From NCBI RefSeq assembly GCF_000403355.2, contig NZ_KE159646.1, forward strand, positions 1,454,258 to 1,518,257: a DNA stretch of 64,000 nt, in the 5' to 3' direction. Within the stretch, counting starts at the first letter, position 1; each line of letters begins with the position of its first letter. Positions 21,261-27,233 of the stretch are shown one piece after another. A program made the position numbers and the translations under genes. This stretch comes from Adlercreutzia caecimuris B7 (GTDB taxonomy: Bacteria; Actinomycetota; Coriobacteriia; Coriobacteriales; Eggerthellaceae). Below the pieces are notes generated by a model. It worked only from the letters and a program-made list of their open reading frames with translations, was not told where the DNA came from and made no database searches.

Positions 21261-21737
21261 ATGGGAGATTTCGCCAATCGGGTATTCGCGGTGGTGCGGC
21301 GCATCCCCACGGGGAAGGTGGCCACCTACGGCCAAGTGGGACGTATGATCGGGGCGCCGCGGGCGGCCCGTTACGTGGGCTATGCCCTGCACGGCAACCC
21401 GGAGCCGGGCACCGATCCGGGATGCATCCCCTGCCACCGCGTGGTGTTCAAGGACGGCCGCATGGCCACGGGCTTCGCCTTCGGCGGCCCTGACGAGCAG
21501 CGCAAGATGCTAGCCGCGGAAGGGGTGGCCTTCGACGAGGAGGGCCGGGTGCTCATGGGCGCCCACCAGTGGGACGGCCATCCCGAAGGCGCGACGGCCG
21601 GCGGCGACGGCGCGGCCGACGGGCCGCTTGGGCCGCCGCCCGACTTCGACTGGGAAGCCGAGCTAGCGGAACACCCCCTGCACCGCTGCGAGACCTGCGA
21701 GCGCCCCCGCGCCGACTGCCGCAAGAACGGCGCTTGA
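21261..21737 (+). CDS. MGMT-family methylated-DNA alkyltransferase with Cys-containing tail
   Basis: The first 95 residues are the DNA-binding/active-site domain of O6-alkylguanine alkyltransferases: VRRIPTGKVATYGQVGRMIG, ARYVGYALHGNP, and the active-site signature IPCHRVVFKDG with the acceptor Cys. Alkyltransferase-like proteins have Trp at this place, so this one may be catalytically competent. The usual N-terminal domain is absent. Instead there is a C-terminal extension of about 60 residues rich in Gly/Asp/Pro that ends in HRCETCERPRADC, a possible metal site. The ATG at 21261 follows GGGAGGAACAGTC. It would repair alkylated guanine or flag it for other repair; the tail is unusual and its role unknown. 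Confidence 0.85.
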   Translation: MGDFANRVFAVVRRIPTGKVATYGQVGRMIGAPRAARYVGYALHGNPEPGTDPGCIPCHRVVFKDGRMATGFAFGGPDEQRKMLAAEGVAFDEEGRVLMGAHQWDGHPEGATAGGDGAADGPLGPPPDFDWEAELAEHPLHRCETCERPRADCRKNGA

Positions 21738-23726: not shown

Positions 23727-24719
23727 ATGAAACGAGCGCTCATCTTCCTCGCCATCACCTTCGGCATCACCTACGCCTACGAGCTTCTCGTGGTGTATCC
23801 CCTGGCAGCGGGTACGGCGCCCTACATAAGCGACCTCGTCTCGCCGACGCTGGCCTACATGGGAGCCGTGGCCCTCGTCATGCTCTTCCCCGCGCTGGGC
23901 GTGGTGCTCACGCGCGTGGTGACGCGCGAGGGATTCAAGAACTGCGTGCTGAAGCCGGCACCGCCCCGCCAATCGCTGCCGTGGTTCGCCGTGGCCTGGT
24001 TCGGGCCGATCCTTCTGGTGCTGGCGGGAGGGGCCGTGTACTACCTGCTGTTCCCCGGCGACTTCGATCCCGCCCTCACCTCCTTCGTGGAGGCGCAGCG
24101 CGCCGCGGCCATGGCGAACGGCGCCGATCCAGCGACCCTGGCAGCGTTCAATGAGGCAGCGGCTGCGCCCCTCGCGATGGTCGCCAGCCTCCTCGGAGCT
24201 TGCGCCATCGCGCCCGCGCTCAACATCGTCACCACCTTCGGCGAGGAGTGGGGCTGGCGCGGCTACCTCATGCCGAAGCTGGCGACCCGCCTCTCCATCG
24301 TGCCCACCCTGGTGGTCACGGGCGTCATCTGGGGTCTGTGGCACGCGCCCATCGTGGCCCTCGGGCACAACTACGGCACCGGATATCCCACCGAGCCTTG
24401 GGGCGGCATCCTGGCGATGTGCGCCTGGTGCGTGGCGCTGGCCGTGTTCCTCGGCTACGTGACCATCCGCACACGCTCCACCTTCGCGGCGGCCATCGGC
24501 CATGGCGCGCTGAACGGGTCGGTGAACCTCGTCACCATCTGCTCCATCTCGGGCGGCAGCCCCTTCGTGGGACCCTTGTGCACGGGCATCGTGGGCGGCC
24601 TGCCGCTGCTGGCCGTGGCGGCGCTCATGCTGTGGGACCTGTGCCGCCGCGAGAAGGCCGGCACCTTGCACGTCCCTGAAGCGGGCCTTCCCGACGGGGT
24701 GCGGAAAGAGCACCGGTAG
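23727..24719 (+). CDS. CPBP-family intramembrane metalloprotease (CAAX protease-like)
   Basis: The 330-residue product has about eight membrane segments. The CPBP/Abi motifs are present: GEEWGWRGYLMPKL (about residues 171-184, EExxxR motif), HAPIVALGHN and, later, GHGALNGSVN, providing the Glu and His residues of the membrane-embedded active site. Bacterial members process peptides or protect against bacteriocins. ATG 23727 has a perfect AGGAGG 6 nt upstream. It is divergent from the GntR regulator and likely controlled by it, which suggests an envelope-stress or toxic-peptide response together with the DUF1648 protein. Confidence 0.88.
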   Translation: MKRALIFLAITFGITYAYELLVVYPLAAGTAPYISDLVSPTLAYMGAVALVMLFPALGVVLTRVVTREGFKNCVLKPAPPRQSLPWFAVAWFGPILLVLAGGAVYYLLFPGDFDPALTSFVEAQRAAAMANGADPATLAAFNEAAAAPLAMVASLLGACAIAPALNIVTTFGEEWGWRGYLMPKLATRLSIVPTLVVTGVIWGLWHAPIVALGHNYGTGYPTEPWGGILAMCAWCVALAVFLGYVTIRTRSTFAAAIGHGALNGSVNLVTICSISGGSPFVGPLCTGIVGGLPLLAVAALMLWDLCRREKAGTLHVPEAGLPDGVRKEHR

Positions 24720-24773: not shown

Positions 24774-26210
24774 TCAGCCCGCGGCGGCTTCGAGAAGCGG
24801 CTCGATATAGGCAAGGGGCGCCACGCGAATGCGACCGCAACAGGGCGCGGGAACGAGCGGGGCGGTTGCTGCGGCCGCCTGGCCGCCAGGCACCTGCACG
24901 GCGAGCGGCTCGCCCTCGGCACCGCCTCGCCTAGCGCAACCTTGATCGCGGACAATGTACAATCCCGGCTTGGGGGCGATCATAGTGACCGTGACATCGG
25001 CGCGCACCGTGTCGGCGGCGGCCGCACCCGTCTGGGCCGAAAGACCGCTCGGCACGTCGGCAGCCACCACCACGGTGCCCCGGACGCGGGCGTCGTTCAG
25101 GACGCGAATCCATCTGTCGAAGGGAGCTTTCACTGCATCGTGGGAGAAGCCGGTGCCGAGAATGGCGTCGATGGCGAGGGGCGATGCGGCCAGAAGATCG
25201 GCAACCTCACCGTCATCGGGCGCGACGAGCACGGCGGCGCGATCGCTCAGGACCGCCCGGGTCCTGAGCGCCGCCGAGCGCGCCGGCTCGGCCCTCAGGT
25301 CTTCGGGAGCCCGCGCCGTCACCACGCGCACCGGGATACCCCACCGATCCAGGTACTCGGCGGCCACCCAGCCATCTCCCCCGTTGTTGCCGCTGCCGCA
25401 GAAGACGACAACCGGGCCCTCGCGCCGGAAGCCCCTGTGCCGGGTGCCGTCGGCTGCCGCCGACCCATCGGAGCCCGCTGCGACGCCAACGGCGACTAGC
25501 GGCGCATCGGCACCTGCAGCGCCGCTCTCTGCGACAGCGCCCCCGTCGGCTCCCTTCCCCTCCAGCATCTTGCGCGCCTCGTAGGCCAGGAAGCGGCCCG
25601 CGCGGCGCATGAGTCCGTCGAGCGGCGTGCCGGCGGCGGCGATGGCCCGTTCCAGTGCCACCACTGCGGACACATCCAGCACCGGTGGCTCGAAGCAAGT
25701 CACCGCCTCGGCCACGGGACGGTAGGCCTCCACGAGCCGCGGCAACGACCAGGCGGCGTTGGCCGGGCTTGTGGAGGGCAGCTTCTGGGCCGCGATGCCG
25801 CAAACGGGCTCGCACAGCTTCCCGTAGAGTCGCGCCGAGGTGGCGCCGGTGCAGAACACGTGCCGCACGGGAGCCGCATGCAGAATGCGCGAGAGATCGT
25901 TGGGCCGGGCGTTACGAATGGAAGCGTCGGAGGCGCCCTCGATGTCGCAGGAGGCGAGCACGTCCCACAGCGCTATATGGTGGCGCAGCAGCAGATCGGT
26001 GCGCTCGGCGTTGCTCTCGGGTACCGGCTCGTCGAACAGCGCCGCCAGCACGCGCCAGAACCGATTCTGAGGATGGCCGTAGAAAAACCCCGCCTCCCGC
26101 GATTTCGGCGAAGGCATCGTGCCCAGCACGAGCACCTCCGACCGTCCATCGGACACCGGCGGAATGCCGTGCTCTACCGATTGCGGCTGCCTCTGCGTCT
26201 CCTTCGTCAT
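24774..26210 (-). CDS. Fusion: hypoxanthine/deoxyinosine DNA glycosylase + NAD(P)H-hydrate epimerase domain
   Basis: Residues 1-170 belong to the uracil-DNA-glycosylase superfamily, in the deoxyinosine-glycosylase group: VLVLGTMPSPKSREAGFFYG (27-46), HPQNRFW (46-52), and LPSTSPANA (144-152). Residues about 178-478 are a YjeF_N domain: an entry helix (LMRRAGRFLAYEARKML), the binding loop FCGSGNNGGDGWVAAEYL (270-287), DAILGTGF, and VVAADVPSGL. A 40-residue low-complexity linker (about 219-260) interrupts the YjeF_N part. The epimerase converts damaged R-NAD(P)HX to the S form for a dehydratase, which is usually fused but absent here. So a DNA-base repair enzyme is joined to a cofactor-repair enzyme. 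I see no frameshift; the open frame is continuous. Confidence 0.85.
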   Translation of the reverse strand: MTKETQRQPQSVEHGIPPVSDGRSEVLVLGTMPSPKSREAGFFYGHPQNRFWRVLAALFDEPVPESNAERTDLLLRHHIALWDVLASCDIEGASDASIRNARPNDLSRILHAAPVRHVFCTGATSARLYGKLCEPVCGIAAQKLPSTSPANAAWSLPRLVEAYRPVAEAVTCFEPPVLDVSAVVALERAIAAAGTPLDGLMRRAGRFLAYEARKMLEGKGADGGAVAESGAAGADAPLVAVGVAAGSDGSAAADGTRHRGFRREGPVVVFCGSGNNGGDGWVAAEYLDRWGIPVRVVTARAPEDLRAEPARSAALRTRAVLSDRAAVLVAPDDGEVADLLAASPLAIDAILGTGFSHDAVKAPFDRWIRVLNDARVRGTVVVAADVPSGLSAQTGAAAADTVRADVTVTMIAPKPGLYIVRDQGCARRGGAEGEPLAVQVPGGQAAAATAPLVPAPCCGRIRVAPLAYIEPLLEAAAG

Positions 26211-26410
26211 CCGACCCCGCCCTTTCCTACCGTCTTTCCATGACAGCGTTATATATCAGGATGACCCCGCTGGCAACGGCCGACGGCCCCTTCAAATTCA
26301 AACGCCTCTTTTCCCATCGACCATCTATACCTGATAAAGGACGTCGCCTGACGAGGCGATCACACGCTATAACGGGTAACACGTTCTAAGCTCAATCGAC
26401 TACGCCCTTT

Positions 26411-26614: not shown

Positions 26615-26852
26615 GGGGTGCTCCATCTTCCGAATGTTGAACGCCGCCGATTATGGGCGCTCGTGACCGCCCTGGCAACCTACGCTCCGTAGACCCATGT
26701 CCGCCTGCGAACCGTGCGACCACCGCCTGTCGGCCGCACGCCAGCCGTCCTCCAGCCACACAGCAACCGAGCGCCCAGCGCCCGCGGACGCTCTTGCAGC
26801 CACCCATCGCCTATACTGGCGAAAACGGAAACGATGGGGAAAGGGTAACATC

Positions 26853-27233
26853 ATGATGAGCGTGCTGTGCGTGGGGGCGGGCGGTTTCGTGGGCGCGGTG
26901 AGCCGCTATGGCCTCGGCCTCATTCCTCTGGCATCGGGCCTGCCACTCGTGACCCTGCTCATCAACTTCACCGGCTCGGTAGTCATCGGCGCAGTCGCAG
27001 AGGCCGCATCCCTCGCCCCAACCGCCCTGCCCCGCGAAGCGGTGCTCTTCCTGAAAGTGGGACTGTGCGGTGGCTTCACCACGTTCTCCACCTTCTCCCT
27101 GGAAACCCTGGAACTCATCGAAGGCGGCCAATGGGCCGTGGCCGGCGCCTACGCCCTGGCCAGCGTCGTCCTCTGCGTAGCCGGCGTGCTGGCCGGCAAG
27201 CTGCTCGCCCGCACGCTTGTGCCGGCCGCGTGA
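26853..27233 (+). CDS. crcB: Fluoride channel Fluc/CrcB
   Basis: The 126-residue membrane protein has four helices and the CrcB hallmarks GGFVGAVSRYGLG (N-terminus), LLINFTGS with the pore Asn, and GLCGGFTTFSTFS with the phenylalanine box and central Na+-binding break. Fluc channels form dual-topology dimers that export fluoride. One copy is visible here, so a homodimer, or a partner elsewhere in the genome, must be assumed. The ATG at 26853 follows GGGGAAAGGG. I looked upstream for the fluoride riboswitch fold and did not find a convincing match. Confidence 0.92.
   Translation: MMSVLCVGAGGFVGAVSRYGLGLIPLASGLPLVTLLINFTGSVVIGAVAEAASLAPTALPREAVLFLKVGLCGGFTTFSTFSLETLELIEGGQWAVAGAYALASVVLCVAGVLAGKLLARTLVPAA

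Follow-up and report, generated by a model that had tools for sequence, protein, structure and literature searches.

The HDG-NnrE fusion gene and its genomic setting

The window, that is the entire 64,000-nucleotide stretch of the Adlercreutzia caecimuris B7 genome that was analysed, carries a gene in which a predicted DNA-deoxyinosine (hypoxanthine) glycosylase (HDG) is joined in frame to a predicted NAD(P)H-hydrate epimerase (NnrE, YjeF_N domain). Its features are:

26221..26228, minus strand: Shine-Dalgarno-like AGGAAAGG, predicted from the sequence, 10 nt 5' of the ATG of the fusion gene
24774..26210, minus strand: coding sequence of the HDG-NnrE fusion, a single open frame of 478 aa (ATG at 26210, stop at 24774)
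25716..26177, minus strand: N-terminal DNA-deoxyinosine (hypoxanthine) glycosylase domain, residues 12-165 (TIGR04274; PDB 2l3f)
26064..26066, minus strand: codon of Asn49, in the HPQN-FW motif
24780..25691, minus strand: C-terminal NAD(P)H-hydrate epimerase (YjeF_N, NnrE) domain, residues 174-477
25437..25544, minus strand: low-complexity insert inside the epimerase domain, residues 223-258 (about 217-264), with pLDDT below 50
25371..25397, minus strand: GSGNNGGDG motif, residues 272-280
25056..25058, minus strand: codon of Asp385, in the D-x-P-S-G motif
24969..24971, minus strand: codon of Lys414
24870..24941, minus strand: second disordered loop, after Lys414, residues 424-447, with low pLDDT

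The unbroken frame across both domains, described in a first-pass annotation of this DNA, holds: there is one 478-codon ORF with neither a stop nor a frameshift between the halves, and an identical frame occurs in 38 further genomes of the family (Eggerthellaceae). Read on the plus strand, the interval 24774-26210 contains a stop. A CrcB-like gene (26697-27233) is divergent from the fusion gene and the gene of an Rce1-like protease, ending at 24719, is convergent with it, so that by position the fusion gene would be transcribed alone.

That two adjacent genes were joined artificially, by sequencing error or misassembly, is scarcely credible. Although several of the loci derive from metagenome assemblies and some end at contig edges, no sign in favour of an artefact was found, and the identical frame is present in 41 genomes with little variation in the length of the junction. 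It is also encoded in ten named records among the best 80 relatives listed, including the Adlercreutzia hattorii chromosome (L070), the record of which is titled as a complete genome; the best named relative among these 80 is Adlercreutzia muris DSM 29508 (94 % identity over residues 1-478). The genomes surveyed here and the named records may overlap in species, and their counts are kept separate. Pairwise comparisons with five congeners further point to purifying selection at the codon level over both parts, with dN/dS values of 0.17-0.23 (HDG part), 0.14-0.38 (epimerase core) and 0.11-0.40 (NnrE N-terminal helices). Values of 0.78, 0.84 and 0.29 were obtained for the low-complexity insert in the three comparisons with congeners that could be scored.

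The genome of the strain (2.96 Mb; 99.88 % complete) contains one YjeF_N match and one TIGR04274 match, both in the fusion gene, and the fusion protein is thus its only NnrE and its only HDG. A second gene of the UDG superfamily is present, while endonuclease V had no match in this genome. The search for a second epimerase that the first-pass annotation called for returned none across the whole genome. The ADP/ATP-dependent dehydratase NnrD, by contrast, which the same annotation had taken to be missing, is encoded by a separate gene (C1:143232-143990) at a distance of 1.3 Mb; no match to its Carb_kinase domain was found by Pfam within the fusion protein itself.

The predicted glycosylase half

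The HDG half passes the curated equivalog threshold of the NCBIfam model for DNA-deoxyinosine glycosylase (TIGR04274; 127 bits against a cut-off of 80) and matches the Pfam UDG domain over residues 21-156 (1.8e-8). The nearest solved protein by sequence is 2l3f, with which residues 10-172 of the predicted model share the UDG fold (Z 17.7; 155 aligned residues; rmsd 2.2), and the model also matches the MUG structure 2c2p (Z 15.0). Asn49, a candidate catalytic asparagine, is invariant in the 40 fusions (40/40) reaching its column, and Trp82 and Asp83 are retained in all 41. The other motif columns vary slightly, with Thr121 replaced by Ala in 2/41 fusions. Motif 1 reads GTMPSP (residues 30-35) and lacks the Asp or Asn that, according to PMC5387724, is used by UDG families 1 and 2; since families 4 and 5 also lack this residue, the feature alone is not specific to family 6. 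The TIGR04274 score and the predicted fold agree with the deoxyinosine glycosylase proposed in the first-pass annotation, and the HDG half is on these grounds assigned to UDG family 6 (HDG) as a predicted deoxyinosine-DNA glycosylase, a family acting on hypoxanthine in DNA and little or not at all on uracil.

The predicted epimerase half

The NnrE half matches Pfam YjeF_N over residues 249-416 (1.9e-30; 106.5 against a cut-off of 24.9) and exceeds by a slim margin the cut-off of TIGR00197, the NCBIfam model for NAD(P)H-hydrate epimerase (91.7 against 88.6 bits). By sequence its nearest solved proteins are TM0922, mouse AIBP and yeast YNL200c. An AlphaFold2 model, built from 28 sequences of which 11 include the epimerase half, contains both folds whole in one confident prediction (mean pLDDT 86.6; pTM 0.85). 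Residues 174-477 of this model align with TM0922 (3rs8; Z 27.2; 205 aligned residues; rmsd 2.3), yeast YNL200c (Z 24.9), mouse AIBP (Z 23.3) and human Edc3 (Z 21.4). The epimerase domain begins at approximately residue 174-178, well ahead of the Pfam boundary, its N-terminal helices starting close to residue 178. Between these helices and the GSGNNGGDG motif lies the low-complexity insert, which is fast evolving and is missing in several relatives; the loop of residues 424-447 is absent from the other 11 fusions of the alignment used (A1).

The domain shows no degeneration across its relatives. GNNGGDG is found in 41/41 fusions, Asp385, which aligns with the Asp of TM0922 and AIBP, in all 38 that reach its column, and Lys414, which aligns with the Lys of TM0922, AIBP and YNL200c, in all 37 that reach its own. 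Within D-x-P-S-G, Ser388 is replaced by Thr in 4/38 fusions and Pro by Ala in 1/38. To judge by the motif, Lys414 is likely to be equivalent to K192 of E. coli YjeF, the invariant lysine of the epimerase; according to PMC5938422, the K192A exchange lowers epimerase activity by at least 95 %. TIGR00197, Pfam and the predicted fold thus concur with the earlier identification of a YjeF_N/NAD(P)HX epimerase, while its alternative suggestion, that this half binds a different damaged purine compound, finds no support in the present data.

Distribution of the fusion

The taxonomic range of the domain pair, which the first-pass annotation had proposed to determine, covers 39 of 138 genomes of the family (the window and 38 fetched loci), in eight genera. 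YjeF_N was found in 102, TIGR04274 in 108 and NnrD in 135 of these genomes; YjeF_N and TIGR04274 co-occur in 89 (39 fused), YjeF_N only occurs in 13 and TIGR04274 only in 19. The 102nd YjeF_N genome (G118) holds a contig-edge fragment, and 101 nnrE loci were therefore read. Two further fusions, among the matches listed, belong to other families of the order (G414 and G407). A class-wide search of 396 genomes gave at least 30 matches spanning both domains, 28 in the family and two outside it among the matches listed, and the 296 genomes searched across the phylum at E <= 1e-60 gave no fusion outside the order. HDG stands alone in most of the best 80 relatives listed, and three longer-looking matches within these (L074, L087 and L096) are plain HDG.

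The domain order is HDG-NnrE in all 41 fusions. The junction, counted from the last HDG motif to the first NnrE motif, measures 47-50 residues in 41/41 (48 residues in 30) and is thus near-constant, although inserts elsewhere differ by tens of residues. In G030 (L229) an epimerase helix follows the HDG and is succeeded by the end of the contig, and this genome may hold a further fusion. It was the only case obtained when the HDG-only frames (among L215-L254 and L294-L311) were read by eye for NnrE remnants following an unfused HDG, which would point to recent fission.

The pairing is unusual, as had been noted from the sequence: in a published survey (PMC5938422), NnrE and the dehydratase were fused in 97 % of 1,248 prokaryote genomes having both genes, and the word glycosylase is absent from the main text of that paper. 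No paper describing an HDG-NnrE pair was found in the literature searched, some searches covering the top-listed matches only. The constituents are known enzymes in a new and conserved arrangement.

Evolutionary origins of the fusion

The NnrE tree was built from the 101 loci of the family plus 24 others, with seven of the loci L263-L291 (29 in total) omitted, one of the seven being a duplicate. In the HDG tree, four short rows were dropped, identical rows were used once, the ten named fused records were omitted and other named records were thinned to approximately one in four, L042 and L077 being retained. These were quick trees without bootstrap, and the tool flagged long branches in both.

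In the NnrE tree, 39/41 fusions (type 1) fall on one branch together with four genes lacking an HDG half (SH-aLRT 93). One of the latter, L202, retains the C-terminal tail of its fused relatives and so has probably lost its HDG half. The two remaining fusions (type 2), from G130 of the family and G407 of another family, cluster in the NnrE tree with stand-alone genes from another family (support 99), and in the HDG tree they are separated from every other HDG (support 99). A single clade of all fusions was rejected by the AU test for HDG (p 0.0014), as was a single clade of all fusions and the four nested stand-alone genes for NnrE (p 0.0032), with the type-2 rows on long branches and the tested groups partly picked after the first tree had been seen. 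Given the separate position of type 2 in both trees and these rejections, the fusion probably arose at least twice.

The history of type 1 is complicated by its HDG halves, which do not form one clade: a single type-1 origin was rejected in the HDG tree (AU p 0.0054, the HDG of G030 being counted as unfused), and in the NnrE tree a type-1 clade without the four nested genes is borderline (AU p 0.053). From the junction and the NnrE tree, type 1 would seem to have arisen once; the HDG tree would fit either replacement of HDG halves or several fusions. A constant junction is what would be expected from a linkerless head-to-tail join and it is held in both lineages; its reading as a trace of a common origin of all fusions is rejected by the trees.

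Other fusion partners of NnrE and HDG

The 101 family nnrE loci comprise HDG fusions (39), VanZ-RDD fusions (27), proteins with a C-terminal extension (2), one fusion to an N-acetyltransferase and 32 loci without a recognised partner. Pfam was run on one example of each partner type, and both the VanZ and the RDD parts were found in 27/27. NnrE and NnrD share one frame in 0/101 family loci versus 21/29 loci from other families of the class, the genomes for the latter being hand-picked (the set of 38 genomes was chosen by hand, not at random). The VanZ-RDD-NnrE proteins (L175 4981-7080, minus strand; L160, L170-L171, L176-L185, L190, L194-L196, L199, L201, L205 and L209-L214) are apparently membrane-anchored NAD(P)HX epimerases. 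The N-acetyltransferase partner, at L188 (2797-4389, plus strand), is of the arylamine type. The C-terminal extension at L193 (1129-2901, plus strand) has a helix-turn-helix match below the Pfam cut-off, and that at L208 (1624-3234, plus strand) resembles it by eye.

HDG also has partners other than NnrE. At L219 (4446-5513, minus strand) a Vsr endonuclease is fused to HDG (Pfam), and L237 and L248 are perhaps HDG-Vsr proteins too, judging by eye from their C-terminal extensions. In L099, HDG occupies residues 23-177 of 591 and is followed by MutY-like sequence (by eye). The HDGs of L245 (4571-5464, plus strand) and L252 (4985-6022, minus strand) have a common N-terminal extension, WELI...SSRRTLFGIPSALD, and a similar stretch lies ahead of HDG in the L141 fusion.

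Genes neighbouring nnrE

An O6-alkylguanine-DNA-alkyltransferase-like gene, identified by Pfam on L181, lies just upstream of nnrE and on the same strand in 26/27 VanZ-RDD-NnrE loci, and directly before nnrE in 4/35 other unfused loci. It was found in 0/29 loci of other families (1.5-kb flanks, some ending at contig edges) and no strong match to it was obtained in the surroundings of the 39 HDG fusions, six of which (the window included) have a weaker relative, of 45 bits, at up to approximately 4 kb. As the 27 VanZ-RDD loci represent roughly one lineage, the alkyltransferase link amounts to perhaps two or three independent observations and not to 30.

Genes of this Ogt/ATL-like type are carried by L160, L170-L171, L175-L185, L190, L194-L196, L199, L201, L205 and L209-L213, and also by L161-L163 and L200. 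The active-site Cys of the PCHR motif is replaced in most of the 26 VanZ-RDD loci, mostly by Asp (by first pattern match, PCHR in 8 and PDHR in 12), as in alkyltransferase-like proteins. In the window, positions 21261-21737 (plus strand) encode a 158-aa MGMT-type DNA-binding protein with PF01035 only and with PCHR, approximately 3 kb from the fusion gene, and similar genes occur near five other fused loci of its genus.

Among the 45 commonest neighbour clusters, assigned by eye, a ribulose-phosphate-epimerase-like gene occurs at 27 unfused loci and a cysteine-desulfurase-like gene, presumably encoding a PLP enzyme, at 25; the alkyltransferase is therefore not the sole conserved neighbour of nnrE. 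At the VanZ-RDD loci a PLP-type neighbour recurs, by eye. A conserved operon around the HDG fusions was considered and rejected, the recurrent neighbours being mostly confined to single genera, that of the window (g1) and g41. The clusters that cross genera are one in g41 and g44, one in g41 and g9 and one, of four loci, in three genera. A RecN-like frame (by eye) lies within approximately 2.4 kb upstream of HDG-NnrE in six fused loci of g41 (L127 3043-4755, minus strand; L126 2290-3981, minus strand) and of the HDG-less L202, seven loci of this genus in all carrying it.

Predicted function and alternative explanations

The fusion is best explained, and with good probability, as one polypeptide in which two functional enzymes each clear a different kind of spontaneous damage, both activities being predicted. 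The family 6 glycosylase would act on hypoxanthine (deaminated adenine), rotating the base out of the DNA and cleaving its glycosidic bond by hydrolysis; the resulting abasic site would be left to base-excision repair. NnrE, with Asp385 and Lys414, would interconvert R- and S-NAD(P)HX, the S form of which the separately encoded NnrD would convert to NAD(P)H. No intermediate would move between the two sites, and the fusion would place both enzymes in equal number under a single control. The likely common reason is that both lesions arise by spontaneous hydrolytic damage to purine or nicotinamide nucleotides: on chemical grounds, water drives both the deamination of adenine and the hydration of NAD(P)H, and each occurs spontaneously. 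Acid or nitrosative stress in the gut is a plausible source, although a shared stress as the reason for the pairing is speculative. We infer a functional tie between the repair of the two lesions, which is favoured by the conservation of the fusion, its probable second origin and the alkyltransferase-like neighbour in relatives, and weakened by the promiscuous fusion of NnrE within the same family. As NnrE is also found on VanZ-RDD, on an N-acetyltransferase and with a C-terminal extension, fusion alone need not mean shared function.

The main rival, and a serious one, is that the fusion is incidental, with NnrE, freed from NnrD, promiscuously joining an upstream gene, so that both halves work and the union only shares expression. 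This is a real possibility, somewhat short of an even chance. It gains from the other partners of NnrE in the family, from the lack of single-frame NnrE-NnrD proteins there in comparison with the hand-picked loci of other families, and from the restriction of the fusion to just 39 of the 89 genomes having both domains. It accounts less well for the arrival of two lineages at one and the same pair, with the same domain order and nearly the same junction length, or for the retention of the type-1 fusion, at a junction length that hardly changes, in seven genera of the family and in one genus of another. The other recognisable partners of HDG are moreover DNA-repair enzymes (Vsr and, by eye, MutY-like), one N-terminal extension aside, and the alkyltransferase-like gene is a conserved neighbour of nnrE. 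A role for NnrE tied to the repair of damaged nucleobases, for instance in handling a purine or nicotinamide nucleotide product of the same damage or in positioning or regulating DNA-base repair, would explain both the probable double joining to HDG and the alkyltransferase-like gene ahead of nnrE in sister lineages. Such a role appears unlikely at present; if true, it would offer a second possible answer to the question of the unexplained additional function of the NAD(P)HX epimerase.

Eukaryotic Edc3, a protein with an RNA link, is among the fold matches, and the near-constant junction and the pTM hint at a fixed arrangement of the domains, as would suit a YjeF_N half that serves the glycosylase as a nucleic-acid- or nucleotide-binding accessory and does not epimerise NAD(P)HX. 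The retention of GNNGGDG, Asp385 and Lys414 without exception where these columns are reached, the closer fold matches to epimerase proteins and the status of the fusion as the only NnrE of a genome that has kept NnrD make this improbable. For the NnrE half, a role in relation to vitamin B6, as proposed for E. coli YjeF, in place of NAD(P)HX repair is given even less credence. Niehaus et al. (2018) tie the epimerase to pyridoxal phosphate (PMC5938422), and among the 45 commonest clusters the cysteine-desulfurase-like gene is found at 25 unfused loci, while an aminotransferase-like gene is found at five loci, one of them fused. At the HDG fusions, however, the former occurs in 0/39 and the latter in 1/39, both identities being by eye, and the 45 clusters shown contained no recognisable B6 synthesis gene.

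Comparison with known bifunctional proteins

The HDG half resembles the family 6 HDGs, the solved relative of which (2l3f) is from Methanosarcina acetivorans, in its equivalog score, UDG fold and motif 1. It differs in forming the N-terminal half of a larger protein, whereas family 6 HDGs normally stand alone. With NnrE/NAXE/AIBP (TIGR00197, PF03853) the fusion has in common the whole domain fold, GNNGGDG, D-x-P-S-G and the invariant Lys, but its NnrE is placed behind a DNA glycosylase and not before a dehydratase, and has a low-complexity insert.

The recurrent and conserved union of HDG with NnrE, together with the alkyltransferase-like neighbour, constitutes a new and testable clue that control of cofactor damage and of DNA-base damage may be organised together in these gut bacteria. 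According to PMC5938422, humans who lack the NAD(P)HX epimerase die in infancy, yet the NAD(P)HX pools of E. coli hardly changed when its counterpart was disabled, and the enzyme has been suspected of a second function. Like the NnrE-NnrD proteins (E. coli YjeF, TM0922), the fusion combines the same epimerase domain with another in a bifunctional repair protein, but the partner is a DNA glycosylase, the order is partner-NnrE and NnrD is encoded separately in the window genome. Another protein that joins NnrE to an enzyme other than the dehydratase is the plant NnrE-PPOX fusion, which is taken as a hint of a second NnrE role in PMC5938422, and in which the partner is a B6 salvage enzyme and not, as in HDG-NnrE, a predicted DNA-repair enzyme.
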